Positions 18,849 to 53,461 of a stretch of 64,000 nt of DNA are shown in pieces. Each line of letters begins with the position of its first letter. The stretch's first letter is position 1. The notes below the pieces were generated by a model. That model saw only the letters and a list, made by a program, of their open reading frames with translations. It ran no database searches and was not told the origin of the DNA. The DNA lies in assembly GCF_008629675.1 (NCBI RefSeq), contig NZ_VWOX01000007.1, positions 1 to 64,000 on the forward strand, read 5' to 3'. The DNA is from Roseiconus nitratireducens (lineage in GTDB: Bacteria > Planctomycetota > Planctomycetia > Pirellulales > Pirellulaceae). The position numbers and the translations under genes were made by a program.

Positions 18849-20203
18849 TGCGCGTTCTGACATTGGGTGCCGGCACCGTTGGTCACTGGATTGCGGACAT
18901 GTTGTGCCGCCGCAGGCATGACGTGGTCGTGGTCGACATCAATTCGGATCGGGTCCGTCAAATCAACAGTGAATTGGATGTGCGGGCGATCGAGGGCAAC
19001 GCGTCGCAGAGCACGGTATTGTTTCAGGCGGACGTTTGCAGCGCCGACATCTGCCTGGCCGTTACCGGCGATGACGAGGCCAACGTCGTGGCGGCCAGCA
19101 TGGCCAAAGCCCTCGGTGCACGTCGCAGCATCGCGCGGGTGTACGCACCGGCGTTCCGCGATTCCAGCACGTTCGACTACCAGAACCATTTCGGGATCGA
19201 TGCTCTGCTGAGCCTGGAGCAGTTGAGCGCGTTTGAGTTGGTCCGCGCGATCCGCAATCCGGATGCGATTCCGCTGGAGCACTTTGCCCGCGGGCACCTG
19301 GAGGTGTACGAAATCGACGTGGAGCCCAACGCCCAGGGTGCCGATCAGAAACTGCGCGATTTGAAGTTGCCCGGAACCGTTCGGATCGGGTCGATCGCCC
19401 GTGACGGCGAAATGTGGCTGGCCAGCGCCGAAGACGAGGTGCATGTCGGGGACCGCGTCAGCCTGATCGGGATTCCGGCGGAAGTGAACCGCAGCCGAAC
19501 ACTCTTCACCGGTCCGACCCATCGTCCGAAGCGAGAGAGCGTGATGATTGCCGGCGGCGGCGAAATCGGATTCCACATCGCTCGCGCGCTGCCGGAGTCG
19601 GATTATCGGATCACGTTGCTGGAAAATGATGCCGAACGGTGTACCCATTTGGCAAAACTGTTGCCTGACGCGACCGTCGTGCACGCCAATGCCAACCGAC
19701 GAAGTGTTTTGGAGGACGAAGGCGGCGGCGCGGTGGACTACTTTGTCGCCTGCACCGGCAGCGACGAAAGCAACATCATGGCCTGTGTCGAAGCCAGGGA
19801 ATTGGGTGCCCGCCGCGTGATGGCGGTGGTGGGACGTCCCGACTACGCCAACGTGGTCGGGAAATTGGGGATCGACCATGTCGTCAGTGAACGCGACGTC
19901 GGGGCGCGGCAGATCCTGGGTTTCCTCAACCAGGGTGCCGTGATCAGTCGCAGTATCCTGCCCAACGGCAAGATCGGCGTTTTCGAGCTGGAGATTGTCG
20001 AGGGGGCTCGGGTGGCCGATGCGACCTTGGCTGAACTGCCGCTGGGCGGACGCTGCCTGATCACGGCGGTTCAGCGAGACAGCTTCATCCGTGTACCGAC
20101 TGCCAACGATCAGCTGAAAGTGGGAGACGTCGTCGTGGCCTTGATGGATTTGAACTACATGGAGGAGTGTCTGGCGTTGTTCAATCGATCCAGCCGGCTA
20201 TGA
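18848..20203 (+). CDS. trkA: Trk system potassium uptake regulatory protein TrkA
   Basis: A cytoplasmic NAD(H)-binding ring protein that gates the potassium channel subunit TrkH/TrkG. The 451-residue product has the full tandem layout. A first Rossmann domain opens with RVLTLGAGTVGHWIADML, then comes a first TrkA-C domain. A second Rossmann domain (VMIAGGGEIGFHIARAL, about residues 232-350) and a second TrkA-C domain follow. The GTG start overlaps the preceding small gene's stop by one base. At the 3' end the sequence ATGA overlaps the start of the hyuAB gene, so three genes are tightly coupled. No trkH lies nearby. Length and layout match the E. coli-type protein. Confidence 0.93.
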   Translation: MRVLTLGAGTVGHWIADMLCRRRHDVVVVDINSDRVRQINSELDVRAIEGNASQSTVLFQADVCSADICLAVTGDDEANVVAASMAKALGARRSIARVYAPAFRDSSTFDYQNHFGIDALLSLEQLSAFELVRAIRNPDAIPLEHFARGHLEVYEIDVEPNAQGADQKLRDLKLPGTVRIGSIARDGEMWLASAEDEVHVGDRVSLIGIPAEVNRSRTLFTGPTHRPKRESVMIAGGGEIGFHIARALPESDYRITLLENDAERCTHLAKLLPDATVVHANANRRSVLEDEGGGAVDYFVACTGSDESNIMACVEARELGARRVMAVVGRPDYANVVGKLGIDHVVSERDVGARQILGFLNQGAVISRSILPNGKIGVFELEIVEGARVADATLAELPLGGRCLITAVQRDSFIRVPTANDQLKVGDVVVALMDLNYMEECLALFNRSSRL

Positions 20204-23200
20204 CGTTCAACCCGCCCGCCAATCGCCGAGTGTTGGTCAGCGCGGATGTCGGCGGAACGTTTACGGATTGTCTGGTCCAGTGGGTCGACGGCAACCAGGT
20301 GGCGCGAGTCGGTTGCCTGAAAGTCTTGTCTTCGGGCATCATTCGGTGCCGCGTCGTCGCCGTGGATTTTCAACGGCGTCTCCGCATCGAAATCCCGCGT
20401 GAGCTGGTCCGCGAGTGCGTGGGCGGGCAGCTGCCGGATGATTTTTTCCGCTCGGCGGAGTTGTCTCGCTTGACCGAAGGCACGCGAAAACCTTTGGGAG
20501 TGATCCGGGCCTATGATCCCGAACAGTCGCTGGTCACCTTCGACCCGATCGAACGGAGGGGGGAATCGAACGGTGATATCGCGATCGACTCGGTGGTCGA
20601 AATCGATTGCGGTTTGGAGTCGCCGGTGTTGGCGACCCGGCTGTTGCTGGGAATTCCCTTGGAACAACCGTTGCCCGAGGTGTCGGTGCGTTTGGGGACG
20701 ACGCGTGGGACCAATGCGTTGTTGACACGCACGGGGGCCCGCACCGCCCTGGTGGTTACCAAGGGCTTCGGGGACGTGTTGGAAATCGGCGAACAGGATC
20801 GGCCCGAATTGTTCGACCTCTCGATCCGCAAGCCCGTTCCGTTGGCTGAACAGGTGGTGGAAGTGGACGCCCGCATGGACCATCGCGGCAACGAATTGGC
20901 GTCGATCGATGCGGTGGCCGTTCGCGGAGAACTCGGACGCTTGAGGGCCACGGGGATTCAGACGCTGGCAATTTGCCTGATGCATGCGCACGTCAATCCG
21001 TCGCACGAATTGCAGCTGGAGCAGATTGCAAGACAGATCGGGTATTCGAACATTAGCCGATCCAGCGAGGTCGCTCCGCTGATCAAACTGGTCTCGCGCG
21101 CCGAAACAACCACCTTGGATGCCTACCTGAATCCGATCCTGGCGGAATACGTGCGCCGGGTTCGGCGTCAGTTTGGCGGACGACGTTGTGACCTGCGGAT
21201 GATGACCAGCGGCGGCAACTTGGTCGCCGCGGATGCGTTTCGCGGTCGCGACAGTGTCCTGTCGGGACCGGCCGGTGGCGTGGTCGGCCTGCAGCGGGTT
21301 GCCCAACAGCGCAACGTCTCGCTTGCGATCGGGTTGGACATGGGAGGCACCAGCACGGACGTCAGCCGGTTCGACGGCCGCGTGACCCGCCGCTACGAAA
21401 GCCGCATCGGCGGGATTCGCGTGATGACGCCGATGATCGATATCCACACGGTCGCCGCCGGCGGCGGGTCCATTTGCGATTACCGCAGCGGCCGACTGGT
21501 GGTGGGACCGGAAAGCGCCGGAGCGATGCCGGGACCGGCCTGTTACGGACGGGGCGGACCCCTGAGTGTGACCGACGTGAATCTGTTGCTTGGAAGGTTG
21601 CCCGCCGAACGCTTTCCTTTGCCGTTGGATCGGAACGCCGCCGTCGGCCGGTTGCAACACGTGGCATCGAAAATGCCCGATCCGCCGGACCAGAACGAAT
21701 CGCTGGCGGAAGGTTTTTTGGATATCGCGGTGACCCACATGGCCGAGGCGGTGCGCGCGATCACGACGGCACGCGGGATCGACGTTCGGGATCACACCTT
21801 GGTTGGGTTCGGCGGCGCCGCGGCGCAGCACGTGTGCCGAATCGCCGACGCTTTGGGTATCGGTCGGATTCTGGACCACCCGCGTGCCAGTGTACTGAGC
21901 GCCGTCGGCATCGGCGTCGCTCCCACCGGAGTGATTCAAACCTGCGGTGTTTACAAGCCGCTGGATCGATTGGATCAGGCGACCATCGATCAAGTGATTC
22001 AGGACTTGAGATCGGAGGTCTTTGGATCATTGTGCGAGCAGACCGATCAGGCCGAGTCGGCCGAGTATCGATTCGAGTTCGATTGTCGTTACGTCGGAAC
22101 GGATGCGGCGATTTCGGTTGACGCCGTGCCACTGGAACAGGTCGGGGACGTCTTTCACCAGGAACATCAAAGGCGGTTCGGATACCGGCGCGATGATCAG
22201 CCCATCGAACTGGTGAGCGTGCGGTGCGAAGCGACCGAGGGAGGCGACCAGCGTGAACAGGGTCTGCTATCATTGCGACTGCCAACGCAGCGGCCCAATC
22301 AAACCTCCGTCGTCCGAGTCTGGCACCGCGGGGGCTGGCACGAGTTCACGTCGATCGAGCGAGACTCCCTGGGTGAGGGCTCCGAGGTACCCGGGGGCAG
22401 CCTGGTCATCAGCGATCAATCGACCCTGGTTGTTGAACCGAATTGGTCCGGCAAAGTCTTTCCAGGCGGGACGATCGAGCTGCAGCCCCGTTCCGACGGC
22501 AAGGCAACCTTGGGGCCGGAAGCCACCGTCGCCGATTCGTCTGCCGGGGACGCCGTTCTGTTGGAAGTCGTCGCGCGGCGTTTGCAAAGTATCGCGGACT
22601 CCATGGGTGAGGTGCTGAGGCGAACCGCGGTCAGCGTGAACATCAAGGAGCGGTTGGATTTCAGTTGCGCCGTGTTCCGCCGCGACGGTGCCTTGATCGC
22701 CAACGCCCCCCACGTCCCGGTTCATCTGGGGGCGATGGGAAAGACGGTTCGGCATTTGATTCAGACGTATCCACAAATGTCGGACGGCGATTGTTACGTT
22801 TCCAATGATCCCTATGCCGGTGGTTCCCATCTTCCGGACATCACGGTGGTGACGCCCGTGTTTTGCCAGCCCGAGGGGCGTCGGCAAGATCAGCCGGATC
22901 TGTTTGTTGCCAGCCGCGCCCATCACGCGGAAATCGGCGGAAAGACCCCGGGCTCGATGCCGCCGCTTGCGCATTCGCTGGCCGAAGAGGGTGTGTTGAT
23001 TCGCGATTTTGCCCTGGTGAAGGATGGCCAATCGCACGAAGAAGAAATCCGCAACCTGCTGTCCCATGCGCGTTACCCGTCCCGCGCGGTCCAGGAAAAT
23101 CTGGCCGACCTGCGGGCCCAGATTGCCGCAGGCCGCGAAGGGGCCCGATCGTTGAGGGCGATGGCCGATCAGCTGACCCTTCCGGTGATTGTTGCGATGA

Positions 23201-24138
23201 TCGATCGTCTGATGCAGGTCGCCGCGGAATCCGTCTCCAGGTGGATCAAGACGTTACCCCACCAACGGCTGTCTTTTGAAGATCGGTTGGACGACGGCAC
23301 GAAGATCCAGGTCGCATTGTGGCGGCAGGACGACGGACTGGTCATCGACTTTGCCGGAACCGATGGGGTGCATCCGCAAGGTTTCAACGCGACGCCGTCG
23401 ATTGTCACTTCGGCCGTGTTGTATGTGATGCGATGCTTTTGTGACTCCAACTTGCCGCTCTGCGACGGCGCGATGCAGCCGATCGACTTGCGAATCCCGT
23501 CGGGGCTGTTGTCTCCGGCCGGCAACGACGATCCCAGCCGGTGTCCGGCCGTGGTAGCGGGGAACGTCGAAACGAGCCAGCGGGTGGTCGACGTGCTGCT
23601 CGGGGCGCTCGGCGCATCGACCGGGGGTGAACGTCCCGGCTGGCGCGCGGTGGCCGCCAGCCAGGGCACAATGAATAACGTGCTGGTGGGCGATGAAACA
23701 TTCGGTTATTACGAAACGATCGGCGGGGGGGCCGGGGCGACCGCGCTTGGCCCCGGAGCCACTGCCGTTCACACGCACATGACCAACACGCGAATCACCG
23801 ACCCCGAAGTGGTGGAAACCCGGTTGCCGATGCGGGTCATCCAGTTCGCCGTCCGCCGGGGAAGTGGCGGCGCCGGAAAGCATCCCGGAGGAGACGGGAT
23901 TGTTCGCGAGTTCCAGTTTCTGCGGCCGTTGACCGTTTCCTTGATCACGGGGCGTCGCACGACGCGGCCTTATGGTGCCGCCGGCGGCCAGCCGGGCCGT
24001 GCGGGACGCAATCTGTGGATCCGGGCCGACGGCCAACCGACGGAAGTGGGGTTCGCGACGACCTTTCAGGCGGACGCGGGAGACCGGCTGCGGGTTGAGA
24101 CTCCAGGCGGGGGAGGTTGGGGGGCGCCCGAAAAATAA
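20200..24138 (+). CDS. Fused hydantoinase A/B family enzyme, 5-oxoprolinase type
   Basis: A 1312-residue ATP-dependent amidohydrolase in which the HyuA and HyuB subunits are fused, as in 5-oxoprolinase. That enzyme opens pyroglutamate to glutamate in the gamma-glutamyl cycle. The HyuA half (about 1-730) opens with SADVGGTFTDCLV and includes RLGTTRGTNALLTR, SGPAGGVVGL and GLDMGGTSTDVSRFDG, actin-fold ATPase motifs. The HyuB half (about 780-1310) has DFSCAVFRRDG, NDPYAGGSHLPDITVVTPV and RAHHAEIGGKTPGSMPP. Length fits the eukaryotic and bacterial oxoprolinases (near 1290). The exact substrate cannot be read from sequence; hydantoins or acetone-like ketones are alternatives. The ATG overlaps the trkA stop by four bases. 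Confidence 0.9.
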   Translation: MTFNPPANRRVLVSADVGGTFTDCLVQWVDGNQVARVGCLKVLSSGIIRCRVVAVDFQRRLRIEIPRELVRECVGGQLPDDFFRSAELSRLTEGTRKPLGVIRAYDPEQSLVTFDPIERRGESNGDIAIDSVVEIDCGLESPVLATRLLLGIPLEQPLPEVSVRLGTTRGTNALLTRTGARTALVVTKGFGDVLEIGEQDRPELFDLSIRKPVPLAEQVVEVDARMDHRGNELASIDAVAVRGELGRLRATGIQTLAICLMHAHVNPSHELQLEQIARQIGYSNISRSSEVAPLIKLVSRAETTTLDAYLNPILAEYVRRVRRQFGGRRCDLRMMTSGGNLVAADAFRGRDSVLSGPAGGVVGLQRVAQQRNVSLAIGLDMGGTSTDVSRFDGRVTRRYESRIGGIRVMTPMIDIHTVAAGGGSICDYRSGRLVVGPESAGAMPGPACYGRGGPLSVTDVNLLLGRLPAERFPLPLDRNAAVGRLQHVASKMPDPPDQNESLAEGFLDIAVTHMAEAVRAITTARGIDVRDHTLVGFGGAAAQHVCRIADALGIGRILDHPRASVLSAVGIGVAPTGVIQTCGVYKPLDRLDQATIDQVIQDLRSEVFGSLCEQTDQAESAEYRFEFDCRYVGTDAAISVDAVPLEQVGDVFHQEHQRRFGYRRDDQPIELVSVRCEATEGGDQREQGLLSLRLPTQRPNQTSVVRVWHRGGWHEFTSIERDSLGEGSEVPGGSLVISDQSTLVVEPNWSGKVFPGGTIELQPRSDGKATLGPEATVADSSAGDAVLLEVVARRLQSIADSMGEVLRRTAVSVNIKERLDFSCAVFRRDGALIANAPHVPVHLGAMGKTVRHLIQTYPQMSDGDCYVSNDPYAGGSHLPDITVVTPVFCQPEGRRQDQPDLFVASRAHHAEIGGKTPGSMPPLAHSLAEEGVLIRDFALVKDGQSHEEEIRNLLSHARYPSRAVQENLADLRAQIAAGREGARSLRAMADQLTLPVIVAMIDRLMQVAAESVSRWIKTLPHQRLSFEDRLDDGTKIQVALWRQDDGLVIDFAGTDGVHPQGFNATPSIVTSAVLYVMRCFCDSNLPLCDGAMQPIDLRIPSGLLSPAGNDDPSRCPAVVAGNVETSQRVVDVLLGALGASTGGERPGWRAVAASQGTMNNVLVGDETFGYYETIGGGAGATALGPGATAVHTHMTNTRITDPEVVETRLPMRVIQFAVRRGSGGAGKHPGGDGIVREFQFLRPLTVSLITGRRTTRPYGAAGGQPGRAGRNLWIRADGQPTEVGFATTFQADAGDRLRVETPGGGGWGAPEK

Positions 24139-29492: not shown

Positions 29493-29556
29493 ATCCTGCG
29501 CGACGTTGTCGCCGGTGCTTCCTGCCGGCCCCCGGTTGCGTTGCAGGGATGCGTCG

Positions 29557-30981
29557 GTGAGCGACTTGAATCGGGAATCGAACCCGTATGCGGCCGGACG
29601 CGGAGCAGGCGACCGCGATGTCGTGCAGGAAACTTCGTCGGCTGACGAAGCGGCGGGGAAGATGGGCGTCCCGTCCGCGGCAGCGGTCGTCGTGGCCAGC
29701 ATGATCGGCGCCGGAGTCTACACGACCAGCGGATTCACGTTGGCGGACCTGGGCACACCCGGATGGGTCGTGCTGGCGTGGGGTGTTGGCGGCGTGATCG
29801 CGATCTGTGGCGCGCTGTGTTACGGCGCGTTGGCCCAGCAGCTCACGGAATCGGGCGGTGAGTACCTGTTCCTGGCCCGAGCCGTTCATCCGGCCGCCGG
29901 AATGATGGCCGGATGGGTTTCGCTGCTGGCGGGCTTTACCGGTGCGATCGCCTTTGCCGCGACGACGCTGGAGGCCTACGCGCGGGGATTTGAGGTCGGC
30001 TGGATTACCGGGGTTCCCCAGAATGTGATTGCGATCGGCGTGATCGTCGTCGCCGCGCTCGTCCACGGTGCGGGACTCCGCCGCGGATCACAGATTCAGA
30101 ACGCCGTCGTGGTGGTCAAGTTGATTCTGATCACGGCCTTTCTGGTCATCGCCTTTGCCGCGATCGGCCATTGGCAGGGCGGCGGGGTGGCGAGACAGGC
30201 CGCCGAAGAGGGCAGCGTCGGCGGTGGCTGGCCGTTTGTCCTGGCCTTCGCCAACGCGCTGACTTGGATTTCGCTCAGCTACAGCGGATTCAACGCGGCC
30301 GTCTATTTGGCCGGGGAGGTGCGGCGACCGGCAGTCTCGGTCCCACGGGCGATGTGGCTGGCAACGGCTGCGGTGACCGTGTTGTACCTGATGTTGAACA
30401 CCGTGTTTGTGTACGCCCCGAAGGCGGACGAAGTCGCCGGCCGGCCGGACGTGGCCAGCGCTGCGGCTGACGCGATCGGCCGGCAACTGGGATGGGAATC
30501 GGCCGGCGGAAGCAACCCGGTCGGGACACTGGTGCGGATTGCAATCGTGGTGGGACTGGTGACATCGGTTTCGGCGCTGATGCAAACCGGTCCGCGGGTG
30601 TATCAGAAGATGGCCGAGGACGGCTTTCTGCCGCGTTGGCTGTCCGGCGGCCCCGGGCACGCCCGCCGCGCGATCCTGATCCAGGCCGGATTGGCGATCC
30701 TGGTTGTGTGCGTCTCCACGCTCCGTCAACAGCTGGACTATCTGGGTTTTACCCTGTCGGTGTGCGCGGCGTTGTGCGGAAGTCTGGTATTCTTTCTTCG
30801 CGGCAACACGCGGTACGACGTGCGGGTCCGTTTCTACCCGATCGTGCCTGTGATTTATGTATTCGGAACGCTGGTGATCGCGGCGCTGACGGCCATTCGG
30901 GCTCCGGTCCAGGCCGGGGTGGGGTTGGCGACGTTATTGCTGGGCGTGGTGGTGTATTATTGGCACTCTCGGGTGGCATGA
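29557..30981 (+). CDS. APC-family amino acid permease
   Basis: A 474-residue inner-membrane transporter with about 12 helices, of the amino acid-polyamine-organocation superfamily. The first helix carries the substrate-binding ASMIGAGVYTTSGF. Further family marks are GALCYGALAQQLTESGGEYLFL in TM2-TM3, and LTWISLSYSGFNAAVYLAGEVRRPAVSVPRA around TM6-TM7. The N-terminus is polar with SNPYAAG, a planctomycete pattern. I prefer the GTG at 29557 with AGGGA about eight bases upstream; a TTG at 29506 is also in frame. The substrate is not identifiable. It lies 64 bases after DUF1501 on the same strand and might be read through from that operon. Confidence 0.88.
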   Translation: MSDLNRESNPYAAGRGAGDRDVVQETSSADEAAGKMGVPSAAAVVVASMIGAGVYTTSGFTLADLGTPGWVVLAWGVGGVIAICGALCYGALAQQLTESGGEYLFLARAVHPAAGMMAGWVSLLAGFTGAIAFAATTLEAYARGFEVGWITGVPQNVIAIGVIVVAALVHGAGLRRGSQIQNAVVVVKLILITAFLVIAFAAIGHWQGGGVARQAAEEGSVGGGWPFVLAFANALTWISLSYSGFNAAVYLAGEVRRPAVSVPRAMWLATAAVTVLYLMLNTVFVYAPKADEVAGRPDVASAAADAIGRQLGWESAGGSNPVGTLVRIAIVVGLVTSVSALMQTGPRVYQKMAEDGFLPRWLSGGPGHARRAILIQAGLAILVVCVSTLRQQLDYLGFTLSVCAALCGSLVFFLRGNTRYDVRVRFYPIVPVIYVFGTLVIAALTAIRAPVQAGVGLATLLLGVVVYYWHSRVA

Positions 30982-33216: not shown

Positions 33217-33271
33217 GTCCCGTATCGTCAGACGTCCCGTATCGTCAAACGTCCCGTATCGTCAAACGTCC
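33217..33271. repeat. 17-bp tandem repeat across the end of the TlpA-like gene
   Basis: GTCCCGTATCGTCARAC is repeated at 33217-33233, 33234-33250 and 33251-33267, then begins again (GTCC). The copies differ at one base. The third copy contains the stop codon (33262-33264) of the minus-strand TlpA-like gene, so copies of its last codons and stop are repeated downstream of the gene. Confidence 0.92.
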
Positions 33272-34125
33272 AATGATTTCAGGAACGGGATCACGTCTTT
33301 CTCGTAGGTGAATCCCAGCGTCTCGCCGCTATCGATGAACCGTTTGACCAGCGTGCCCTGGGCATCGTAAATCAGGACCGCCGGAATCGACGGTAGGTCC
33401 AATTCCGCGAACACGTCTTCGCTGGCCGTCTGGCAGATGAAGTTTTGGAAGTCGGCATCGACCGCCGTCAGGAAGGCGTTGACTTTGTCGGCATAGGTTT
33501 CCGGGGGCCGGCTCTTCCGCCCGTCGTAGTCGACATCCACGCCGATGCAAACGATCCGTTCGGGCATGTCACGGTGAAGTTCGACCAAGTGGGGGAACTC
33601 CTTGATGCAGGGTTCACACACGGTGGACCACAAATCGACCACGGTGATTTTTCCGGTCCCCTGGACACGTTGTTCGATCTCCTTCCAGGAAGCGAATTGG
33701 GCCCTGACATCCTGGCCGCCGGTCTCGCCGGAGCCCGAGTCCGTCGCTGGCGGAGCGTTTGACTGGGACTGGGGCGGGGCGACGTCAGGCATTTCGATGC
33801 CTCCGCCGCCGGCTTTCGCGGGGCCACCGCCGGATGGATCTTCCGGGGCATCAGCGGGCAGTTCGGTTTCCGGAAGCTGCAAGCCACCGGAGGGCGAAGT
33901 CGACGTGGGTTGATTGTCGTTCTCGGTCACGGGACTGGACGACGGGGCCGGCGCAGCGGCCGCGCCGCCCGGCTCGGAACTCGGCTCCACCCGGGAACCG
34001 GTCTCTGGAGGCACTTGATCAGTGTCGGCGGATCCACCACAGCCGGTGATTGCGAGGGCCGCGATGGTGAACGCCACGACCGAGGGACCGTGCAGAGAAC
34101 GAATGCGGGGAAACGGGAACGTCAT
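33262..34125 (-). CDS. TlpA-like thioredoxin-fold lipoprotein
   Basis: A 287-residue lipoprotein with lipobox LAITGC (C29). A low-complexity Pro/Ser/Gly/Glu linker of about 110 residues follows, then a thioredoxin-fold domain of the TlpA/ResA kind. The redox motif is C170-EP-C173 in WSTVCEPCIKEFPHL. The domain continues with CIGVDVDYDGR and PAVLIYDAQGTLVKRF. It probably reduces disulfides in the cell envelope, for example in cytochrome c maturation. The long linker would let it reach away from the membrane. ATG at 34125 gives a normal lipoprotein signal; an upstream start would not. The 3' end lies in a 17-bp tandem repeat. Confidence 0.88.
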   Translation of the reverse strand: MTFPFPRIRSLHGPSVVAFTIAALAITGCGGSADTDQVPPETGSRVEPSSEPGGAAAAPAPSSSPVTENDNQPTSTSPSGGLQLPETELPADAPEDPSGGGPAKAGGGGIEMPDVAPPQSQSNAPPATDSGSGETGGQDVRAQFASWKEIEQRVQGTGKITVVDLWSTVCEPCIKEFPHLVELHRDMPERIVCIGVDVDYDGRKSRPPETYADKVNAFLTAVDADFQNFICQTASEDVFAELDLPSIPAVLIYDAQGTLVKRFIDSGETLGFTYEKDVIPFLKSLDV

Positions 34126-34411
34126 CTTGGCGGGCCTGCCGTTAGGGGGTGTGGGAAGCGATCGAATTGATCTCCGATCGGTGCCGGATCGAACGGAAAA
34201 CCGATGGGCGAGCACCTTCGATTCGATCGAGTCACGGGATTTCAGATAGACTGGGTGCAGGACCCGTTCGAACCGGATGCGATTGTACCGGTAAATGGGG
34301 AAAGCGTCGATTTCGCCGCCCCCTACTTCGCCGGTGCCATACCGCGGTGAGTGACGCAGAGCGAATTTCTTTTCTTAGACACTTTTTAGAAGCAGATAGC
34401 AGACTTCGTTG

Positions 34412-35044
34412 ATGAGCGACGGGGACCTTTCAACGACCGAGTTGGTGGTGGCTTCGAAGCAGGGCGATAACGCCGCGCTGGGGCAATTGCTGGAGCAGTA
34501 TCGCGGGTACTTGCTGATGCTTGCCCATCGCAACCTGTCGGAGCGATTGCGGCGGCGGGTCGATCCGGTGGACATTGTTCAGGTCACGTTTTTGGAAGCC
34601 AAGCGTGATTTGCACATGTTTCGGGGCGAATCACCCGGTGAATTTGCAGCCTGGCTGCGAAACATGCTGAAGAACAATGTCGCGACCGCGGTCACGCGGC
34701 ACGTGATGACGCAGAAGCGGTCGATGCGAAAAGAGGTCAACGCGGATGGAAAAGCGGCCGACGATTCGGCCGGGTCGCCGTGGATCACCCAGTTGCCCGG
34801 CAGCACGACCAGCCCGTCGGGTGTTGCCATCAAATCCGAAGCCGCGATGGCGTTGCTCGAGGCGTTGCACCAGTTGCCGGAAACCCAAGCCGAAGCGATT
34901 CGGTTGCGTTACATGGAAGGGCTGCCCCTGGCTCAAATCGTCGAACGGATGGGAAAGTCCGATACCGCGGTGGCCGGACTGCTCAAACGCGGATTGCAAA
35001 AGCTGCGGACGCTGATCGATTCAGAAAACAATCCCTGGCTGTGA
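34412..35044 (+). CDS. ECF-type RNA polymerase sigma factor, planctomycete kinase-linked group
   Basis: A 210-residue sigma factor with region 2 (about residues 20-90) and region 4 (about 150-205). Region 2 includes RRRVDPVDIVQVTFLEAKRDLHMFRG and EFAAWLRNMLKNNV. Region 4 includes ALHQLPETQAEAIRLRYMEG and the helix-turn-helix LAQIVERMGKSDTAVAGLLKRGLQKLR. ECF factors of this build in planctomycetes often sit beside Ser/Thr kinases, as here, where one starts 320 bases downstream. No anti-sigma factor with a zinc motif is adjacent, so control may be by phosphorylation rather than a classic anti-sigma factor; that is inference. ATG at 34412 is used; TTG at 34409 is adjacent. Confidence 0.9.
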   Translation: MSDGDLSTTELVVASKQGDNAALGQLLEQYRGYLLMLAHRNLSERLRRRVDPVDIVQVTFLEAKRDLHMFRGESPGEFAAWLRNMLKNNVATAVTRHVMTQKRSMRKEVNADGKAADDSAGSPWITQLPGSTTSPSGVAIKSEAAMALLEALHQLPETQAEAIRLRYMEGLPLAQIVERMGKSDTAVAGLLKRGLQKLRTLIDSENNPWL

Positions 35045-35364: not shown

Positions 35365-37533
35365 ATGCCGACTTCGCCTGAAGCTGAAGACCCCATCGAC
35401 GAAGCGTTCGCAGCCTACCTGCGATCCTGCGATGAAGGTGCCGTCGGATCTCGGGAGCAGTTTCTTTCCCAGTTCCCCGACATGGCGGATGAATTGCGGC
35501 AGCTGATGGAGGCGGCTGACGCGATCGATCGATTCACCGGAGCAAGCATCGCGCCACAGGAGAGCGATGTTGCCGATGCCGGCGCCGAGACGATCGACGC
35601 GGAGTTCTTTGATCCGGCAGAATCCGGTGACGATCCGGCGGCAACCTTGCCCGAAGCCGATCGCCCCAGCGGCGACCAGGGACCGACGCTGCCCTTCGAT
35701 TTGGGCGACTACGAGCTGTTGGAGGTGATCGGACGCGGCGGGATGGGGGTGGTGTACCGGGCGACCCAACGGATGCTTGATCGAACCGTTGCGGTCAAAA
35801 TGATCCGGGGCGGCATGTTGGCCTGCGAGAACGACGTTCGGCGTTTTTACACCGAGGCACAGGCTGCGGCCGGGCTTCATCATCCCGGCATCGTACCGGT
35901 GTATCAGTTCGGTCAGCGGGCCGGACATCATTTCTTCTCGATGGCGATGATCCAGGGAACTGATCTGCAGCGAAAGATCAACACCGAGGAGATGGCCATT
36001 GCCGACGCGGCGCGGTACGTCCGCGACGTTGCCGAGGCAATCGAGCACGCACACCAGAACGATGTCCTGCACCGGGATCTTAAACCGGCCAACATCTTGA
36101 TCGACCGCGCCGACCAGGTGCACATCACCGACTTCGGGTTGGCCAAACACTTGGGAGCCGACAGCAGCGTGACCGGCAGCGGCGCCGCCGTCGGAACGCC
36201 CAATTACATGGCCCCGGAGCAAGCCGGCGGGCACAGCGATCGGGCGACCCGGCAAAGCGATGTTTATTCGCTCGGCGCGATCCTGTTCGCGTGCGTCACC
36301 GGACGGCCACCGCTAGTAGGTGACTCGGTCGTTGAAACCCTGATGCAGGTGGTTCACCAACCGCCACCCTTGATGCGGTCGTTGCGCAGCGGCGTCCCTG
36401 CGGATTTGGAAACCATCGTCGGCAAGTGCTTGGAAAAGCAGCCGAAGAAACGTTATCAGTCGGCCCAGGATTTGGCCGATGACTTGGACGCGTTTCTGGA
36501 AGGGCGGCCGATCAACGCGCGGCCGCGAAACCGGGTGATCAAGACTTGGCATTGGGTCGCCGGCGTGCCACTTGTCGGAGCGTTGATCGGACGGAAGGTG
36601 GTGGGCACCACCGCGGGGCATCGCCGATTTCAGGCCGCCATGTTGCTGTTGTTTGCGATGCTGCCGTTCTTCCTGGTCGGGGCTGCCGTCTGGTGGAACC
36701 ATCACTCCCAGTCGATGCCGGAACAGTTGACCCTGGCCGGCGGTTTGGATGGCGGTGTCTACAACACGGTATCGGCGGCGCTGGCGGATCGATTGCAGCA
36801 ATCTCATGGCGTCGAATCTCGCGTCGTTTCGACCAGCGGTTCGTTGGACAATCGTTCGCGGCTGCTGGCCGGCGAAGTGGACCTTGCACCGATGCAATCG
36901 GCGGCCATTCGTGGCGGCGAACTGTGTGTCGTCGCCCCGCTGTTTTACGAAGCGGCACACCTGCTGGTCCGCGCCGATGACCTGGAAGCTGCCTCGGGCC
37001 AGCTGGCCGGCAAGGTGATTGCGGTGGGGCCGGTCGGCAGCGGGTCCCGGACAACGGCCGAAATGATTCTGGATTCGTTGGAATTATCTCCAGATATCTC
37101 GCCACGGCGGGTGATCGAGTGGCGGGACTTGGGAAAGCCGGAGTCACCGACCGTGGCGCTGATTTGCGTGGGCCGTGGCAGCTCGCTAGTGGAGGGACTG
37201 CTGCGTTCGGGGTGGGTCCTGGTGCCCATTCCCGAGAGCATTTCGATCTCGCTGCAACACCCCACGCTCAGGCCGATCACGATCGATCGCGGCGATTATT
37301 TGGCCGCGGAGATTCCCGCGACAGGCGTGCAAACCGTTGGCACGACGGCATTTCTTGCGGCCCGACGCGATGCACCCGCGGCGTTGGTTCGGGCCTCGCT
37401 GGAAGAACTGTATCGCCCACCGCAGATCTTTCCCCGGTTGATTCCCAGGGACCACGCCGCCGAGTGGCAGGGGCTGGATTTTCATCCGGAAGCCCGACGC
37501 TACTTTGCCTCGACCGACGATCCTTCCTCCTGA
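35365..37533 (+). CDS. Transmembrane Ser/Thr protein kinase with TAXI-type solute-binding domain
   Basis: A 722-residue receptor-like kinase. Residues 1-110 form an acidic N-terminal extension. The kinase domain (about 115-380) is complete: glycine loop GRGGMGVVYRA, K145 in VAVKM, catalytic HRDLKPAN (D238), DFGLA (D256), GTPNYMAPEQ and QSDVYSLG. A single transmembrane helix lies at about 424-444. The outside part (about 455-722) matches TAXI-type (TRAP-associated) solute-binding proteins: LDGGVYNTVSAALADRL, STSGSLDNRSRLLAGEVDLA, LLVRADD and GPVGSGSRTTAEMIL. Such domains usually bind glutamate-like or other small acids for transport. Here the domain is fused to a kinase and would act as a sensor. 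It lies downstream of an ECF sigma gene and upstream of a histidine kinase. Confidence 0.92.
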   Translation: MPTSPEAEDPIDEAFAAYLRSCDEGAVGSREQFLSQFPDMADELRQLMEAADAIDRFTGASIAPQESDVADAGAETIDAEFFDPAESGDDPAATLPEADRPSGDQGPTLPFDLGDYELLEVIGRGGMGVVYRATQRMLDRTVAVKMIRGGMLACENDVRRFYTEAQAAAGLHHPGIVPVYQFGQRAGHHFFSMAMIQGTDLQRKINTEEMAIADAARYVRDVAEAIEHAHQNDVLHRDLKPANILIDRADQVHITDFGLAKHLGADSSVTGSGAAVGTPNYMAPEQAGGHSDRATRQSDVYSLGAILFACVTGRPPLVGDSVVETLMQVVHQPPPLMRSLRSGVPADLETIVGKCLEKQPKKRYQSAQDLADDLDAFLEGRPINARPRNRVIKTWHWVAGVPLVGALIGRKVVGTTAGHRRFQAAMLLLFAMLPFFLVGAAVWWNHHSQSMPEQLTLAGGLDGGVYNTVSAALADRLQQSHGVESRVVSTSGSLDNRSRLLAGEVDLAPMQSAAIRGGELCVVAPLFYEAAHLLVRADDLEAASGQLAGKVIAVGPVGSGSRTTAEMILDSLELSPDISPRRVIEWRDLGKPESPTVALICVGRGSSLVEGLLRSGWVLVPIPESISISLQHPTLRPITIDRGDYLAAEIPATGVQTVGTTAFLAARRDAPAALVRASLEELYRPPQIFPRLIPRDHAAEWQGLDFHPEARRYFASTDDPSS

Positions 37534-37598: not shown

Positions 37599-37654
37599 AA
37601 TCCGAACAACCGTCATGATCGATAGAGAAAGACGGATTGTCCTCGTTGTTCGGA
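37599..37654. promoter_or_regulatory. Perfect 11-bp stem-loop between the kinase and histidine-kinase genes
   Basis: ATCCGAACAAC (37599-37609) and GTTGTTCGGAT (37644-37654) are perfectly complementary. An inner pair, CGTC/GACG, shortens the 34-base loop. It lies 72 bases before the histidine kinase ATG and has no T-run, so it is more likely an operator or intercistronic RNA structure than a terminator. Confidence 0.6.
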
Positions 37655-37726
37655 TGCACGCCAAACGCTCGACCGGGACGACGAAACCTATGGTTCCTTT
37701 GGGCAAAGGTCAGAAGGAGCATTGGA

Positions 37727-40033
37727 ATGCCGTCACAGCGGCCCCCATCAAGTTGGGATGGGGGAAATCAGGGTCCCGGAGATCACTCTGCGGATCACGA
37801 CAATCACCACCCCCAGGGTCCCTGGGACGTCGCCGGCGAATCGTCGGGCGCGAGCGTTGATGAATGGACTGACGACAACGCGACCGCTTTTCCTTCGACC
37901 GATCTCAACGGTCTGCCGCACTCCCCAACAGGAATCGACGCGCCGTCCACCGTCCCCGCGGAGAACGATGCTGCCGACGGCGGCTTGGGACAGAAAACCG
38001 ACCACGCACGCTCGCTGCGAAGCAAGCTCGTACTGGCTCTGGCGGGGATCTTCGCGGTTGTCGTCGGGGTCGACGAATTTGTTCGACAGCAGGTCATCTC
38101 GCCGGAATTCGCGAAGCTGGAACGCATCGCTGCGATGAAGGAGACGCACCGGGTCCGTTCGGCGCTCAATGCAGAATTGGACTTTCTGGCCGGTGCGGCC
38201 GCGCTAGACCTGCATCAATGGGAGACCACCACGGATTCGAACGCGGTGAATCCGTCCTCGCAATCGGCGCGTCCCGGGCCTCCTGCGTCATCTACTGCGG
38301 GCCGGATGGACATTCGACCTCTCTGGTCCGCCCATGTCGGCACCGACGGACGTTGGAGCTGGCTTCCGAATACCCCGGAGGTGACCGCGCCCGCACCGCA
38401 ATCGGATGAGAGTGAAAGCCCCCGCGCGGTTGATGGCCTTCAGTTCCCCAGCCTGTCCGCGAGCCTGTTCGCCACCGCGGCTGAGCATCAAACATCCGAG
38501 CTCGGACCAACACCCGACGCCCTCTCCGCGAATCCGCTGCGGGGATTGACGCGAGGCAGCGATCAACAGCTGTACCTGTATTGTGCATTGCCGTTGGAAC
38601 TTGAAACGTCGCCGAAGGCCGATGCGCAACGCGCCGCCGGATCGCTTCCGCCGGCAACGGAGTTCTTCGTCGCGGTCCGCCGCCTGGATCAGCAAGTGAT
38701 TCAGGAGCTCGAGCATCGGACCAGCGTCGAGTTCACCATCGATCCGTTGGACGCATCGGCAGGGTCGTTGGAAGGCATTTGCGTCGATGCCGAATCCGAA
38801 ACACGGTTGCGCGTTCAGTCGCCGCTGCGCAACGCGGCCGGCGAGCCGTTGGCACGACTTTCCATCGTGCTTCCACGCGACATGATGTTGAGCAGCGAAC
38901 GCGCCAAGGCGTTTGCCCGTTACCTGTCGCTGTGCGGGGCATGCGCCTCCTTGTTGATTCTGTTGTTGTTGCTGCAGCGGATCGTGATCGGACGTGTGGA
39001 AACCATTCGCGAAGCTGCCGAAAGCATTGGTCAGGCGGGCGTCATTGATCCTCGGGCGACGTCGGGAGCGTTGCGCGTCACCGGTCAGGACGAGATCGGA
39101 CAATTGGCCCAAGCGTTTGAAAGGATGCGACGACGACTGGGAGAGACACAGCGGCGACTGAGTGACGCGTCGCACGCGGCGGGAATGAGTTTGGTGGCCA
39201 ACACGGTGATTCACAACGTCGGCAACGTTTTGACGAACGTGAACAGTCTGGTGGAGACGGTGACCGAGCAAGTGGATCAATTGCGAATTGAACCGTTGAA
39301 CCGGCTTGCCGAACGACTGCGGCGAAACGCCGACGACGCGGATCTCCAGATGGCCACACCGGATTATCTGCGGCGGCTGAGTGAAACGTTGGAAGACGAC
39401 AAGGATGAACTCGCGCGGCTGCTGCACACGCTGTCTGAGAATGTCCAACACATTCACGAGGTCATTCGTGAGCAGCGACGTCACGCCCGTCGTTCGGTCG
39501 ACGTCAGTGATGTCGCCGCAATCGACGTGATCGAAGAAGGGGTGAGCTATTGCCAGGCGAAGCTCGATCGCGACGAGATTCGCGTGGAGCTTGCGGTGCC
39601 AACGGATCTGAGGTTTCAAACGGATCGGTCCCTCTTGGTGCAGGTCTTTATCAACATCATCGGCAATGCTCAGCACGCCTTGGCGGAGGTCAAAGGTCGC
39701 CAGCCGACGCTGGTCATCCAAGCCGAGCGGTTGGGTGATTCCATCGAGTTTCGGTTCCGGGACAACGGCTGCGGGATGGACTCCAGAACGCTGTCGATGG
39801 CATTTGATGCACATTTCACGACCCACCAGAAGGGAAGCGGTTTGGGTTTGCATTTCTGCGCGATCGCGGTGAAGCAGTTGGGGGGCTGCATCCGCGCCTG
39901 CAGCGAAGGGCCCGGCAAGGGGGCGGTGTTTTCGGTCGAATTGCCCCTTTCGACTTCGCACGTGGCGTTGCCGGAGGGTGACTTGTCGGGCAGAGTCGCT
40001 TCGGACAGCTCGAAGGAAAAAATCCATGCTTGA
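37727..40033 (+). CDS. Membrane sensor histidine kinase with CHASE4-like domain
   Basis: A 768-residue sensor kinase. The first 95 residues are a disordered, partly His-rich cytoplasmic tail. TM1 (about 100-116) and TM2 (about 398-420) enclose an extracytoplasmic region of about 280 residues. Its start, EFAKLERIAAMKETHRVRSALNAEL, resembles CHASE4. A HAMP domain (about 421-475) follows. The phospho-acceptor is H496 in the box VIHNVGNVLTNV, an HNxGN variant of the usual HExRT/SP. The ATPase domain has NIIGNAQHAL, DNGCGMD and GSGLGLH. The ATG at 37727 is backed by AGAAGGAG nine bases upstream. The stop overlaps the response regulator gene by eight bases, so they form a two-component pair. Confidence 0.9.
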   Translation: MPSQRPPSSWDGGNQGPGDHSADHDNHHPQGPWDVAGESSGASVDEWTDDNATAFPSTDLNGLPHSPTGIDAPSTVPAENDAADGGLGQKTDHARSLRSKLVLALAGIFAVVVGVDEFVRQQVISPEFAKLERIAAMKETHRVRSALNAELDFLAGAAALDLHQWETTTDSNAVNPSSQSARPGPPASSTAGRMDIRPLWSAHVGTDGRWSWLPNTPEVTAPAPQSDESESPRAVDGLQFPSLSASLFATAAEHQTSELGPTPDALSANPLRGLTRGSDQQLYLYCALPLELETSPKADAQRAAGSLPPATEFFVAVRRLDQQVIQELEHRTSVEFTIDPLDASAGSLEGICVDAESETRLRVQSPLRNAAGEPLARLSIVLPRDMMLSSERAKAFARYLSLCGACASLLILLLLLQRIVIGRVETIREAAESIGQAGVIDPRATSGALRVTGQDEIGQLAQAFERMRRRLGETQRRLSDASHAAGMSLVANTVIHNVGNVLTNVNSLVETVTEQVDQLRIEPLNRLAERLRRNADDADLQMATPDYLRRLSETLEDDKDELARLLHTLSENVQHIHEVIREQRRHARRSVDVSDVAAIDVIEEGVSYCQAKLDRDEIRVELAVPTDLRFQTDRSLLVQVFINIIGNAQHALAEVKGRQPTLVIQAERLGDSIEFRFRDNGCGMDSRTLSMAFDAHFTTHQKGSGLGLHFCAIAVKQLGGCIRACSEGPGKGAVFSVELPLSTSHVALPEGDLSGRVASDSSKEKIHA

Positions 40034-42047
40034 GTTTGATTCCGAACGCCGTGTCCTGATCGTCGATGATCAGCCCCAGATTCACGAAACGTTCTCTCGC
40101 ATTTTTCAAGCCGACCAGCGGAACCGATCGGATCTGGACGCTTTTGAAGCCAGGTTTCTGCTGGACGACCCGCGTCAGCCGGACGTCAAGTTGCAGGCCG
40201 AACCGCGATTCTTGCTGACGCATGTCTACAGCGGCGAAGAAGGCGTGCATCGGGTTGAAACCGCGATGGCCGAGGAAGCTCCCTTCGCACTCGCCTTCGT
40301 GGACATGAGGATGCCCAAAGGCATGGACGGTTTGGAAACGGTCGAAAGGCTGTGGAAAGTTGATCCCAACCTGCACGTGGTGATTTGCACGGCCTTCAGC
40401 GATCACACCTGGGACACCGTCTTGGGAAGACTGGGCTACAACGACAGGCTGTTGCTGTTGCGGAAACCTTTCTCCCAGGATGAAGCCCGGCAGATGGCGC
40501 TGGCGTTGACGGAGAAGAGCCGGTTGGCGGCCCGACAACGGGAAAAAGTCAGTTTGCTGAAGAGCGAGGTCGATCGTCGACGCAAGGCGGAGACGGAGTT
40601 GCGCGACATGGCGCACCGGGATGCGCTCACATCGCTTCCCAACCGTCCGTTCTTGCTGCAGCGGCTTGAACGGCTGCTTGCCGGTCAAGGTCAACAGCGG
40701 CAGAGTCACGATGCGATTCTGTTTTTGGATCTGGATAATTTCAAGATCATCAATGACAGCCTCGGGCACGACGCCGGTGACGAACTGCTCAATCAGGTGG
40801 CCGAACGCCTGAAAGAATGCGTGCGGGAGAAAGACACCGCCACGCGCTGCCAGCAACCGCAGCTCCCCGCGGAGTCCCATGGCAAAACCGTTCGGCTTGG
40901 AGGCGACGAGTTCGTCGTTTTGTTGCAACGTTTGGATCGGCCCGATGACGCGGTGACCGTTGCCAGGCGGATCGTCGAGCGTGTCAGTGAACCCTTTCAC
41001 TTGGGCGACCGGATGGTCACGGTAGGGACCAGCATCGGGATCGCATTCATCGATGATTCCATCCGCGATGCGCACGACGCGCTTCGAAACGCCGATACCG
41101 CGATGTACCAAGCGAAAAACACCGGGAAGGGGCAGATCGCGGTGTTTGACCAAACCATGCACGATGCCGTCGTGGCGCGGCACGAATTGGAGGCTCAATT
41201 ACGCAGCGCGCTCAAAGCGGAAAAGTTCGAACTGCGGTATCAGCCGATCGTCAACCTTCAAGCCGGAACGATCATCGGTGTCGAAGTCCTGACCCGCTGG
41301 CGAGGCGACGATGGGCAATACATCCCGCCGGACGAATTCGTGCCGCTGGCCGAAGAGATCGGACTGATCAATCACTTCACCGAATGGGTGTTGGAACGTT
41401 CGATGCGCGAGTTCAACGCGATGATGTCATCGCTGGACGACGTGCAACGCCCGCATGCCTACCTGGGTGTGAACATCTCCCGCCGTCAGCTCGGCGATCC
41501 CTTCTTTGCGGATCGGTTGCGGGCCATTGTCGAACGGACCAAGTTTCGTTGGTCGCTTAAACTGGAAATGGCCGAGCATTCCGATTCCAGGCACAACGAA
41601 CGTTCGCTGAAGACGATGCTGGACCTGCATCAAAGTGGGATCGGAATCCACATCGATGACTTCGGCAAGGGGAATTCATCGCTGACCTGTTTTCAAGCTT
41701 CCCCCTTTGAAACGGTGAAGATCGATCGCACGTTCACCGCATCAATCGCGAATGACCACAGTCATGCGGTCATCGCCCAGGCCATCGTTCAACTGGCTCA
41801 TCACTTGATGACCAACATCGTTTGCCAGGGCGTTGAATCGCCCGAGCAACTGAAGCTGTTGCAGCAGTGGGGCTGTGACATGGGGCAAGGGTATTTCTTC
41901 GCACCCCCGTTGGATATCCACCGCCTGCGGAAGCTGCTGATCGAACCGACGCAGAGCGCGGGGATTCGCACGTTGCGGAAACTTGCGGTGCTTCCCGATG
42001 TCTATCCAAACGCTTCTCTGGGAAACGTGATCGATCTGGAGCCGTGA
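40026..42047 (+). CDS. Response regulator with GGDEF and EAL domains (c-di-GMP turnover)
   Basis: A 673-residue output protein of the histidine kinase encoded upstream. The receiver domain (1-155) has acidic pair D14/D15, phospho-acceptor D93 in FVDMRMP and K147. It is lengthened by about 30 residues after the first helix (about 28-62). The GGDEF domain (about 190-355) has an intact active site LGGDEF (292-296) and FLDLDNFKIINDSLGHDAGD; I see no RxxD inhibitory site at the usual place. The EAL domain (about 390-655) reads EVL in place of EAL, but keeps VNIS, IDDFGKGNSSL, VKIDRTF, QGVE and GQGYFF, so phosphodiesterase activity is plausible. The typical LELTES is altered to LEMAEH. Net direction of c-di-GMP change cannot be predicted. 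Confidence 0.93.
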   Translation: MLEFDSERRVLIVDDQPQIHETFSRIFQADQRNRSDLDAFEARFLLDDPRQPDVKLQAEPRFLLTHVYSGEEGVHRVETAMAEEAPFALAFVDMRMPKGMDGLETVERLWKVDPNLHVVICTAFSDHTWDTVLGRLGYNDRLLLLRKPFSQDEARQMALALTEKSRLAARQREKVSLLKSEVDRRRKAETELRDMAHRDALTSLPNRPFLLQRLERLLAGQGQQRQSHDAILFLDLDNFKIINDSLGHDAGDELLNQVAERLKECVREKDTATRCQQPQLPAESHGKTVRLGGDEFVVLLQRLDRPDDAVTVARRIVERVSEPFHLGDRMVTVGTSIGIAFIDDSIRDAHDALRNADTAMYQAKNTGKGQIAVFDQTMHDAVVARHELEAQLRSALKAEKFELRYQPIVNLQAGTIIGVEVLTRWRGDDGQYIPPDEFVPLAEEIGLINHFTEWVLERSMREFNAMMSSLDDVQRPHAYLGVNISRRQLGDPFFADRLRAIVERTKFRWSLKLEMAEHSDSRHNERSLKTMLDLHQSGIGIHIDDFGKGNSSLTCFQASPFETVKIDRTFTASIANDHSHAVIAQAIVQLAHHLMTNIVCQGVESPEQLKLLQQWGCDMGQGYFFAPPLDIHRLRKLLIEPTQSAGIRTLRKLAVLPDVYPNASLGNVIDLEP

Positions 42048-49134: not shown

Positions 49135-52100
49135 TCAAGCTTTCTCGGCCGGTTCTGCGGATTCCTGCTCATCGGCGGTCAATGCCAGGTCGTCTTCACC
49201 GAGTGCCGACACCGCTTGTGCGACGGCTTCCGGTGACCCGCTGGTGGTCTCTTCGGCCAGCATCAATCGGCGGCGAGCATCGCGCCACAGCACGTACGCC
49301 TCCTGAAGGAAGACGGCGAACAGCACAACGAAGGCACCGATCATTGCCAACTTGATGGCGGACGACCACTGCACGAACGCGTAGACACCGGTGGCCATCA
49401 CCAGCCAGGCGGACGCCAGGACGGCTCGGAAGATGGCTTTCATCTGGGTGTCGCGCGCTTGGACACGGATGCTGCGTGCGACCGCGTTGCGGGCCGAGTC
49501 GTTCGCCAACTCGCGCATCGCTGACAGGTTCCGTTTGCGCTCGGGCGCCTCAGAGCGCGGCACCAACGCGTCGGGTCCCGCGTCATTCTGGATGGCATCG
49601 GAAACCGAAGGCGGCAACTCCATGTCGGGGACTTGGCGGTCGGCCGTTTCAGCCGAGGCCGATGCGGCCGAGGATCCTTCCGGGACGTCGGATTCCGCGG
49701 CGGCATTGAGGTTCGATCCCGGCTCCGATTGCGGCGTTTCGGCCGGATGGGCTTCGACCCCTGGAGCCTTTTTCTCCGCCACGGGAGCTTTGCTCTCGGT
49801 GACAGGGCTTTGCGAATCGTCACCCTGAACCCGTTTCAGCAACCGGCTCATGTAGGCTTCGATCGAATCGTCTTCGCGAGGCTCCTCATCGTCCAGTTCC
49901 GCATCGTTGCCGCCGGCATCAATCGGATCTGCGACGCCCTCGGCCGCGTCGCCCGCGTCGGCCGCGCCGGTCGGTTCGTCCCACGCGTCGGCGTGGTCCT
50001 CTTCGCCAGAGATCTCGGCATCGCTCGATGTCGACTCAAACGACGGATCGCGGGCGACCGCTTCGCTCAAGGCACTCTCGGATTGGGATACTTCCTCCGG
50101 GGAGTTTTCGTCCTGGAAGTTCTGGTCGTCGAACTCGATTTGCTGGTCCATCACGTACGTCGGCTCGACTTCCGCATGCGACTGGGTATCGGTCGACAGA
50201 TCCTGGGCGTCGTGTTGGTCTTCCGCGTCAATCTGTTCGATCAGCTGGGCCGCCAGGCCTTCGCCGGCATCGGAATTGACCGGCAACGAGTCGGCGTCGG
50301 TTTCATTCAGGTGTTCGTCATCCTCCTGTTGGCCATCGACGTTGCCGCCGGGCATGAAGAGGGACCAGTCCAGGCTGTCGGGTGTCTCGTCCTGGTACTC
50401 ATTGGTCAGCCGCGCGATGGTTTCATGATCTTCCAGATCCGCAACGCCTTGGGAGTCCTGGCTGGACGATGGCGAACTCCATTCGGAATCGGCGTGCCAC
50501 GCTTCATCCCGCTCGTCGACAGGATCGATTGCCTGTTGGACGCCCTGTTGGATGTGGTCGATGGCGCTGTCCACCGAATCTTCCGGGGATTCGTCGTGCC
50601 AGCTGACGTCATCGGTCGGCTCCGAGTGCGCGTCGTCGCTTTGGTACCAGGAGCTTGTCGCTTCGGAGGTGTTCTGCTGCGTGTCATTCACCTCGGATTG
50701 ATCCCAGGCGGAGCCCCAGGGACGTGAATCGACCGTTGTGTCTCGCTGGCCAGATCCCACATCGGCCCAACCTTCCACGTGCGCACCCGACTCGACTTCT
50801 TGCTCGGCTTCCATTCGCCAGATCGCGCCGTCCGATTCGACAACCGCCTCGGATCGCTGCTCCTGATCGCCCCGATCGCTGTCACGTTGGGAGGTGTCTG
50901 CGTTCCAGGTTGACGCCGGCTCTGACGCGTCAGTCGCACTGACGTGCGGCGTGTCAACTTCCTGGTTGGGGGCAGCGGCTGCTGCGTCGCTCGTGTTCTC
51001 CCCGGCGGGAGTGCCTTCAGCGGTTTGGTTGTCGACCCAATCGGCAGCCGAAGAAGATTGGGAGATCGATTGACGGAGTTGCTCGATCTCTCGGCGCAGC
51101 TCGGATTCGCTTTCTCGATGCTCGTCTTCCAGTCGCTGGATCGTTCGCTGATGGTCGACCTGCAACCGCTCCAATTCGTTCCTCGCCCCTTCCAGCTCCT
51201 GCTGGACGGTTTGCCACTGCTCGCCCGTGATCTCCGATTGGGGAGCATCTTGGCTAGCCGAGGAATCCGCCGCGGAGGCAAGTTCGGCGGTGAGCGCCTC
51301 GTTGGCGCTGCGCAGCTCCGCCAATTCCGCGTGGGCCTGGGCCAGTTGCACGGAAAGGTCCTCGACCGATTGTCGCAGCTGTTCGGAGTCGTTCGTCCAC
51401 GATTCCTGCTGAGAAGCCTGCCCACTCTTCATCTGGTCGATCAGCAGTTCCAGCTGACGAATTGACGCGGTGGCACCTTCGTAATCGCCTCGCAGTTGCG
51501 ACGTTTCCTGGTTGGCGCGGTCGATGCTTTCTTGCAGTTCCTGGATGTGGTCGCGGAGCTCGCTGGCAACTTGCTGAGCATTGTTGTTCTCCGCCTGGAC
51601 GGTCGCCTTTTCTTCGCGAAGCCGATGCAATTCGGTTTCCGCCTCGGCGACGGCGCGATCATGTTGTTGTTGTGCCTCGGCGAGCTGTTCTTCCAGTTCG
51701 GCGACGCGGAAGCTGGCGGATTCCTGTTCGGCATCGGCGATGCGGCGGGTTTGTTCCGCTTCTTCACGTGCGGCCCGCAGTGCGTTTCCGCTTTCGGACA
51801 GCTTGTCCTGCAGTTCCCGCTGTTTGGCCAGGCTATCTTCGCGCAGCTGGGCCATTTCAGCTCGTGTCGATTCCAGTTCCTCCGTCACCTGCCGCAGTTC
51901 GTCTTCGATTTCGGTCAGACGGCTTTGGGCGGCTGCTGCCGCTGCCGCATCGTTCTCTCCAGCCAGCTCTTCTTGCTGCGTGCGAGCCTCGACGGACAGT
52001 TGTGCCATGGTTTCGGCCGACTGCTTTTCACGCTGCTGCAGTTCCTGGTGACGTTGACGAAGATCGTTCAGCTGTTCACTGAGCTCGGCGAATTCACGAC

Positions 52101-53166: not shown

Positions 53167-53461
53167 CACGATTTCCTTGCTTTTTTGCTTGCAAATAATT
53201 TCAGTTTTTTCGGTGTTTCGGTCCGACAACACCGCTTCTCCAGTGTCGGACGTCGCTGTGGCGCCGGTGAAGCAAAACCGGGGGGGAGGTCCGATTTTCG
53301 GTCCGAATGGAATCTCAGCGGTCAGGAGAGCACACCCCACCTTCGGGCCCGTTGGTCAAACTGTCCGGCGTGCCCAATGAATTGCAACGGCCGCAAAGTG
53401 GCGAAAATCCCAGAAAAAGGCGGTTCAACGGCCCTTGTTGGCTAAATAAGGGTGAATTCAT

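Follow-up and report, generated by a model that had tools for sequence, protein, structure and literature searches.

What is a transport-receptor domain doing at the end of a protein kinase? In the window analysed here, a stretch of 64,000 nucleotides from Roseiconus nitratireducens, one forward-strand gene (positions 35365–37533) is open from ATG to stop and encodes a single-pass Ser/Thr kinase of 722 residues. An earlier note, made from the sequence alone, had taken the C-terminal part of this protein for a TAXI-type binding domain, of the kind that normally delivers substrates to TRAP transporters.

The chain begins with an N-terminal cytoplasmic region (residues 1–115, positions 35365–35709), which carries a conserved AFAAYL...SREEFL..FP segment (alignment A1). 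Following it is the protein kinase domain (residues 116–368, positions 35710–36468; Pfam Pkinase, E = 8.6e-51), which is complete and of the Hanks type by both its Pfam match and its catalytic residues: K145, E164, H236-R237-D238, N243 and D256-F-G are invariant in the 37 sequences of alignment A1. A conserved juxtamembrane segment (RNRVIKTWHWVAGVPLVGALIGRK..., residues 388–420, positions 36526–36624) places basic residues directly before a transmembrane helix (residues ~424–442, positions 36634–36690; hydropathy maximum 2.45), and beyond the helix is the bilobal TAXI/NMT1_3 domain (residues 460–714, positions 36742–37506), recognized by Pfam, by profile and by predicted fold. All kinase-TAXI fusions have, by hydropathy, one hydrophobic segment N-terminal of the TAXI domain, at this same position. 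The basic flank of the helix is likely to be cytoplasmic, which would put the C-terminal TAXI domain outside the cytoplasmic membrane. This is the arrangement that the earlier note had proposed, a TAXI domain just outside the single transmembrane helix of a complete kinase, and the four motifs on which it relied are all in place: GGVYNTVS (residues 463–470), STSGSLDN (489–496), GEVDLA (503–508) and GPVGSGS (555–561).

A profile search of the C-terminal region, the check that the note had suggested, matched Pfam NMT1_3 well above its curated cut-off of 27 bits (53.7 bits and E = 3.2e-14 for the isolated domain; E = 1.7e-12 for the whole chain). The NCBIfam TRAP_TAXI model also matches (E = 1.4e-17), at 63.5 bits, under its curated cut-off of 84.35 bits. 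TRAP-TAXI proteins are free, soluble and exported; this TAXI domain instead lies C-terminal to a kinase and a transmembrane helix in one reading frame. The closest sequence relative with a solved structure is the glutamate-binding protein TtGluBP, found at E = 1.2e-7 with the single sequence and at E = 1.9e-34 with a profile of orthologue ectodomains.

The fusion is a family. Kinase–helix–TAXI genes were collected in two ways: 296 genomes of the order were searched for long reading frames that match TAXI, and a species genome collection, scanned with a profile of the closer fusion subset (A3), supplied 31 named loci. Together they gave 67 loci with 62 distinct C-terminal domains, five proteins being common to both sets. 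Since all 37 aligned orthologues in A1 match both Pkinase and NMT1_3, a chance origin of the two-domain chain is excluded. An annotation artefact was considered and rejected, given the open frame and the 62 distinct orthologous proteins. Carriers include Rhodopirellula baltica, R. europaea, R. sallentina, R. maiorica, Stieleria sedimenti, S. tagensis, Rubripirellula obstinata, Neorhodopirellula pilleata, Aporhodopirellula aestuarii and Pirellula metagenome-assembled genomes. In the genus from which the window comes, each of the 14 genomes has the fusion. Among the TAXI proteins inspected in 392 genomes of the phylum, other architectures were present outside the order and no kinase-TAXI fusion was found there; a plasmid collection yielded only three distant, partial TAXI matches. 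In one Pirellula-type genome (L035, reverse strand), the kinase-TAXI gene is split within its N-terminal region by a gene for an IS66-type transposase.

Prediction of the ectodomain with AlphaFold2 from 35 aligned orthologue ectodomains gave a bilobal model (pLDDT 92.6, pTM 0.89). Structure comparison by Foldseek and VIA-align ranked solved TAXI proteins first, so that the bilobal solute-binding fold on which the earlier reading depended stands: the top match is VcGluP (PDB 8s4j/9ibo; Z-score of 27.9 and r.m.s.d. of 2.5 over 264 residues), with 4ddd (Z 27.8), TtGluBP (Z 27.3–27.5) and VCA0144 (Z 24.6) also matched, and the next structural family reaches a Z-score of only 14.9.

VcGluP holds L-glutamate by Y45, S75, Q93, E125, the main chain of G156 and Y200/M201, and its affinity falls 213-fold in Y45A and 990-fold in Q93A (PMC11574862). 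Mapped by profile alignment of the orthologues to 8s4j, Y45 corresponds to Y466 (positions 36760–36762 of the forward strand; Y in 41 of 42 fusions), S75 to S493 (36841–36843; S in 39, T in three), Q93 to Q511 (36895–36897; Q in all 42) and E125 to E529 (36949–36951; E in 38, D in four), and G156 aligns to G560. Among the 271 positions compared in these fusions, Y466, S493, Q511 and E529 rank 10th, 20th, 4th and 27th in conservation. Four of the six VcGluP ligand residues that have been mutated, Y45 and Q93 included, are thus conserved; D157 is not retained, nor are Y200 and M201, two weaker positions of the VcGluP site. At the four pocket positions, the soluble TAXI proteins of this order carry F, S (or T), N and N. 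From Q511 to E529 the fusions have 18–19 residues, where their soluble relatives have 29 and VcGluP, by its own numbering, 32. Owing to this shortening and to the loss of Y200, M201 and D157, the pocket may differ from that of VcGluP; its residues suggest a VcGluP-type site that retains its amino-acid-binding end and has a changed rim. For this reason an α-amino acid is our best guess at the ligand, and on the pocket sequence we give an amino acid about an even chance of being the one bound.

The earlier note had seen no TRAP permease in the window. That absence extends to the whole genome (8.2 Mb, 93% complete), in which no DctM or TRAP_fused permease was found and this kinase fusion is the only TAXI match. 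The association is detectable by the same means: of four soluble TAXI loci inspected in relatives, three have an adjoining gene for a DctM multi-helix protein of 733–744 residues. The window does hold an amino-acid permease (29506–30981) and a 5-oxoprolinase-type protein (20167–24138). Both genes lie away from the fusion in congeners, and a functional link of either to it was rejected; the permease is distant in 12 of 13 congeners (in draft genomes, on a different contig) and near in G184 only. Their nearness to the kinase gene in this genome looks accidental.

The departure from transport probably predates the kinase. In a tree of 95 TAXI domains, including 42 kinase ectodomains, a split with 100% support sets the soluble transporter proteins apart from all others. 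A single branch (SH-aLRT 82, a moderate value) groups together the 42 kinase ectodomains, which are nested within membrane-anchored planctomycete TAXI proteins and not among the soluble ones. These anchored proteins (for example, L075, L076, L079 and L081) are ~440–490 residues long and consist of an N-terminal transmembrane helix, a TAXI domain and a helical tail. They keep the pocket tyrosine and glutamine, and half of them, including the nearest ones, have the shortened loop; beside the anchored genes inspected, no TRAP permease was recognized by size and hydropathy. They probably form a second TAXI lineage outside transport, and it is because the kinase ectodomains nest among these permease-less proteins that the step away from transport is placed before the fusion. 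The idea that a transport receptor had become a kinase ectodomain is therefore sustained as to the fusion, by profile, predicted fold, conservation and the genome-wide absence of a permease, but the domain had probably left transport before it met a kinase.

The kinase half has its own history. Kinase-like matches number 97 in this genome, a figure that includes fragments, and the nearest paralogues of the kinase bear WD40 repeats in place of the TAXI domain, which indicates that exchange of the outer domain is normal for this kinase family. The simplest reading of these sequences is that an anchored TAXI protein was joined to a kinase from a family with exchangeable outer domains. TAXI domains occur in other large proteins of planctomycetes: a 1383-residue protein (L102:1564-5712) has one at its C-terminus in addition to a trypsin-like protease and TPR-like repeats, and two proteins of ~1300 residues (L104:2832-6701 and L105:3155-7075) each have three tandem TAXI matches.

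Located 320 bp upstream of the kinase-TAXI gene, and on the same strand, is a gene for an ECF sigma factor (34409–35044; Pfam Sigma70_ECF and region 4). Divergent from the sigma gene is that of a thioredoxin-like protein (33262–34215, reverse strand), whose Pfam matches are weak and below cut-off; this gene is often found there in many loci, and may be a member or a target of the kinase-TAXI locus. Downstream on the forward strand are two accessory partners identified by Pfam, a sensor histidine kinase with HAMP and HATPase_c domains and an IHNVGN H-box (37637–40033, start codon uncertain) and a GGDEF + EAL response regulator (40026–42047), whose ATG overlaps the histidine kinase stop codon. 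Of the 67 loci, 42 have an ECF sigma gene immediately upstream of the fusion, and in several the ends of the two genes overlap; the window's own sigma gene was taken in separately. The histidine kinase and regulator lie downstream in 20, with the regulator but no histidine kinase in one more (21 of 67). The sigma factor cannot be the sole target, since the other 25 loci, mostly Pirellula-type, have no recognizable ECF gene adjoining the fusion. Ten Pirellula-type loci have a conserved ~886-residue membrane protein downstream (L136:7816-10476 and nine homologues), which has no Pfam match and starts at most ~40 bases from the kinase-TAXI stop codon.

Phosphorylation of sigma factors by kinases has precedents in EcfP/PknT (PMC8999054) and EcfK/PknS (PMC13147305), and several planctomycete ECF groups are predicted to be kinase-controlled (PMC8999054). 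In both pairs, which belong to ECF43, a Hanks kinase gene adjoins the ECF sigma gene, as it does here, and PknS resembles the kinase-TAXI protein in having one transmembrane region and a C-terminal outer domain, although the outer domain of PknS is made of TPR repeats. ECF43 sigma factors lack an acidic motif until they are phosphorylated, whereas 40 of the 41 linked sigma factors keep the region 2.2 DxxD and the remaining one (L054) has ExxD, so the ECF43 rule does not apply here as such. The linked sigma factors also have an invariant threonine in a region 2.2 QxT motif and an invariant SPS in the linker between σ2 and σ4, both candidate phosphorylation sites; EcfK of Xanthomonas is activated via a region 2.2 or linker threonine (PMC13147305).

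Taken as a whole, the kinase-TAXI protein is likely to be a ligand-gated receptor Ser/Thr kinase, a reading based on sequence and modelling to which we give a probability of about 70%. That the ectodomain has a sensory role, sensing a ligand, is very probable from the conserved pocket and the neighbouring regulatory genes. Outside the membrane, the TAXI domain would act as a Venus flytrap, binding between its lobes a small carboxylate, most likely an α-amino acid of the glutamate or glutamine type. Closure of the lobes would alter the arrangement or dimerization of the single-pass protein, passing a signal through the single helix and switching the Hanks kinase, which in turn would directly phosphorylate the adjoining ECF sigma factor as its main output. 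Gene linkage and the known kinase–sigma pairs make that sigma factor a rather likely main target. The histidine kinase and c-di-GMP response regulator, present at about a third of loci, would be a later or optional addition. Only tentatively do we put forward the full combination. In it, these proteins would be receptor kinases of a class not described before: the TAXI flytrap would detect glutamate or a similar amino acid outside the cell, the ECF sigma factor would be controlled through its direct phosphorylation, and the ectodomain would descend from anchored TAXI proteins that no longer served transport and were perhaps sensors too.

Three other accounts bear on this reading. The ectodomain might bind no small molecule and act as a module for dimerization or for docking a protein such as a periplasmic partner, the fold being kept as a scaffold. 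The shortened loop after Q511, the changed D157, Y200 and M201 positions and the wide variation of the ectodomains, which are 23–63% identical to that of the window, would suit such a role, but few residues of the domain are as well conserved as those of the pocket, with Q511 invariant and Y466 nearly so. A pure scaffold would need no conserved pocket residues, and we consider this account improbable. Far more doubtful still is a tethered solute-binding protein that continues to pass substrate to a permease while its kinase controls uptake. It could appeal to the match of fold and pocket with transport proteins, to the presence of an amino-acid permease in the window and to the ability of other permeases to partner TAXI domains, as in TAXI-GltS (PMC12344293); the lack of a TRAP permease in the genome, the separation of the window's permease from the fusion in nearly all congeners and the absence of a large multi-helix permease beside most of the close anchored relatives that were inspected all weigh against it.

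The third account shares the core of the sensor-kinase reading and departs from it in ligand and output. A dicarboxylate, an aromatic acid or a cell-wall fragment would be sensed in place of an amino acid, and the main output would be the histidine kinase and c-di-GMP branch or some other substrate. TAXI proteins do bind other acids, such as α-ketoglutarate in Proteus (cited in PMC11574862), and the loci without a sigma gene would need another output. Against these points, the Y/S/Q/E residues are those that, in VcGluP, touch the amino and α-carboxyl groups of glutamate (PMC11574862), and the histidine kinase pair is linked to the fusion about half as often as the sigma gene. We regard this account as possible, though on the unlikely side.

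The ligand-gated kinase proposed here has partial counterparts among known systems. The histidine kinases BvgS and EvgS have solute-binding-type (Venus-flytrap) outer domains, which belong to another binding-protein family than TAXI and are attached to another kinase superfamily. In mycobacteria, the GlnH–GlnX–PknG system (cited in PMC9602780 as its reference 20) places a Ser/Thr kinase under the control of an amino-acid solute-binding protein; GlnH is separate from PknG, whereas in the kinase-TAXI protein binding domain and kinase form one chain. Solute-binding-type domains on histidine kinases, kinase control by separate binding proteins and ECF-linked receptor kinases are thus already known. 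VcGluP and TtGluBP (PDB 1us4/1us5) share with the kinase ectodomain the fold (Z ~27–28), the profile match and the VcGluP Y45, S75, Q93 and E125 positions, but they are soluble and TRAP-linked, whereas the kinase-TAXI domain is fused behind a kinase and a transmembrane helix, has a shorter Q93–E125 loop and is accompanied by no TRAP permease. The anchored planctomycete TAXI proteins are nearest in the TAXI domain itself, and have a C-terminal helical tail instead of a kinase. TAXI domains have been recruited outside TRAP systems in TAXI-GltS fusions and the BP0403 system (PMC12344293), where the partner is a transporter and not a kinase. In the open-access papers searched we found no description of a TAXI/NMT1 domain as the ectodomain of a Ser/Thr kinase, although it may have been mentioned elsewhere. 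A survey of planctomycete kinase domains (PMC11032199) names neither NMT1 nor solute-binding domains in its main text.

Planctomycetes have many kinases, mostly with repeat domains, and their signals are hard to guess. To our knowledge, very few bacterial receptor Ser/Thr kinases have a known ligand. With ligand-bound solved relatives and a conserved pocket, the kinase-TAXI ectodomain makes its signal directly testable, and the likely output is an adjoining gene. The second, anchored and apparently transport-free TAXI lineage cautions against calling every TAXI protein a TRAP subunit.

Further along the window are two other genes. One encodes a 1401-residue protein (49135–53340, reverse strand) whose only listed Pfam match, near the N-terminus and just under cut-off, is YscD-type (FHA-like), and the other a 532-residue protein (60506–62104, forward strand) with a C-terminal AAA/zeta-toxin-like kinase domain.
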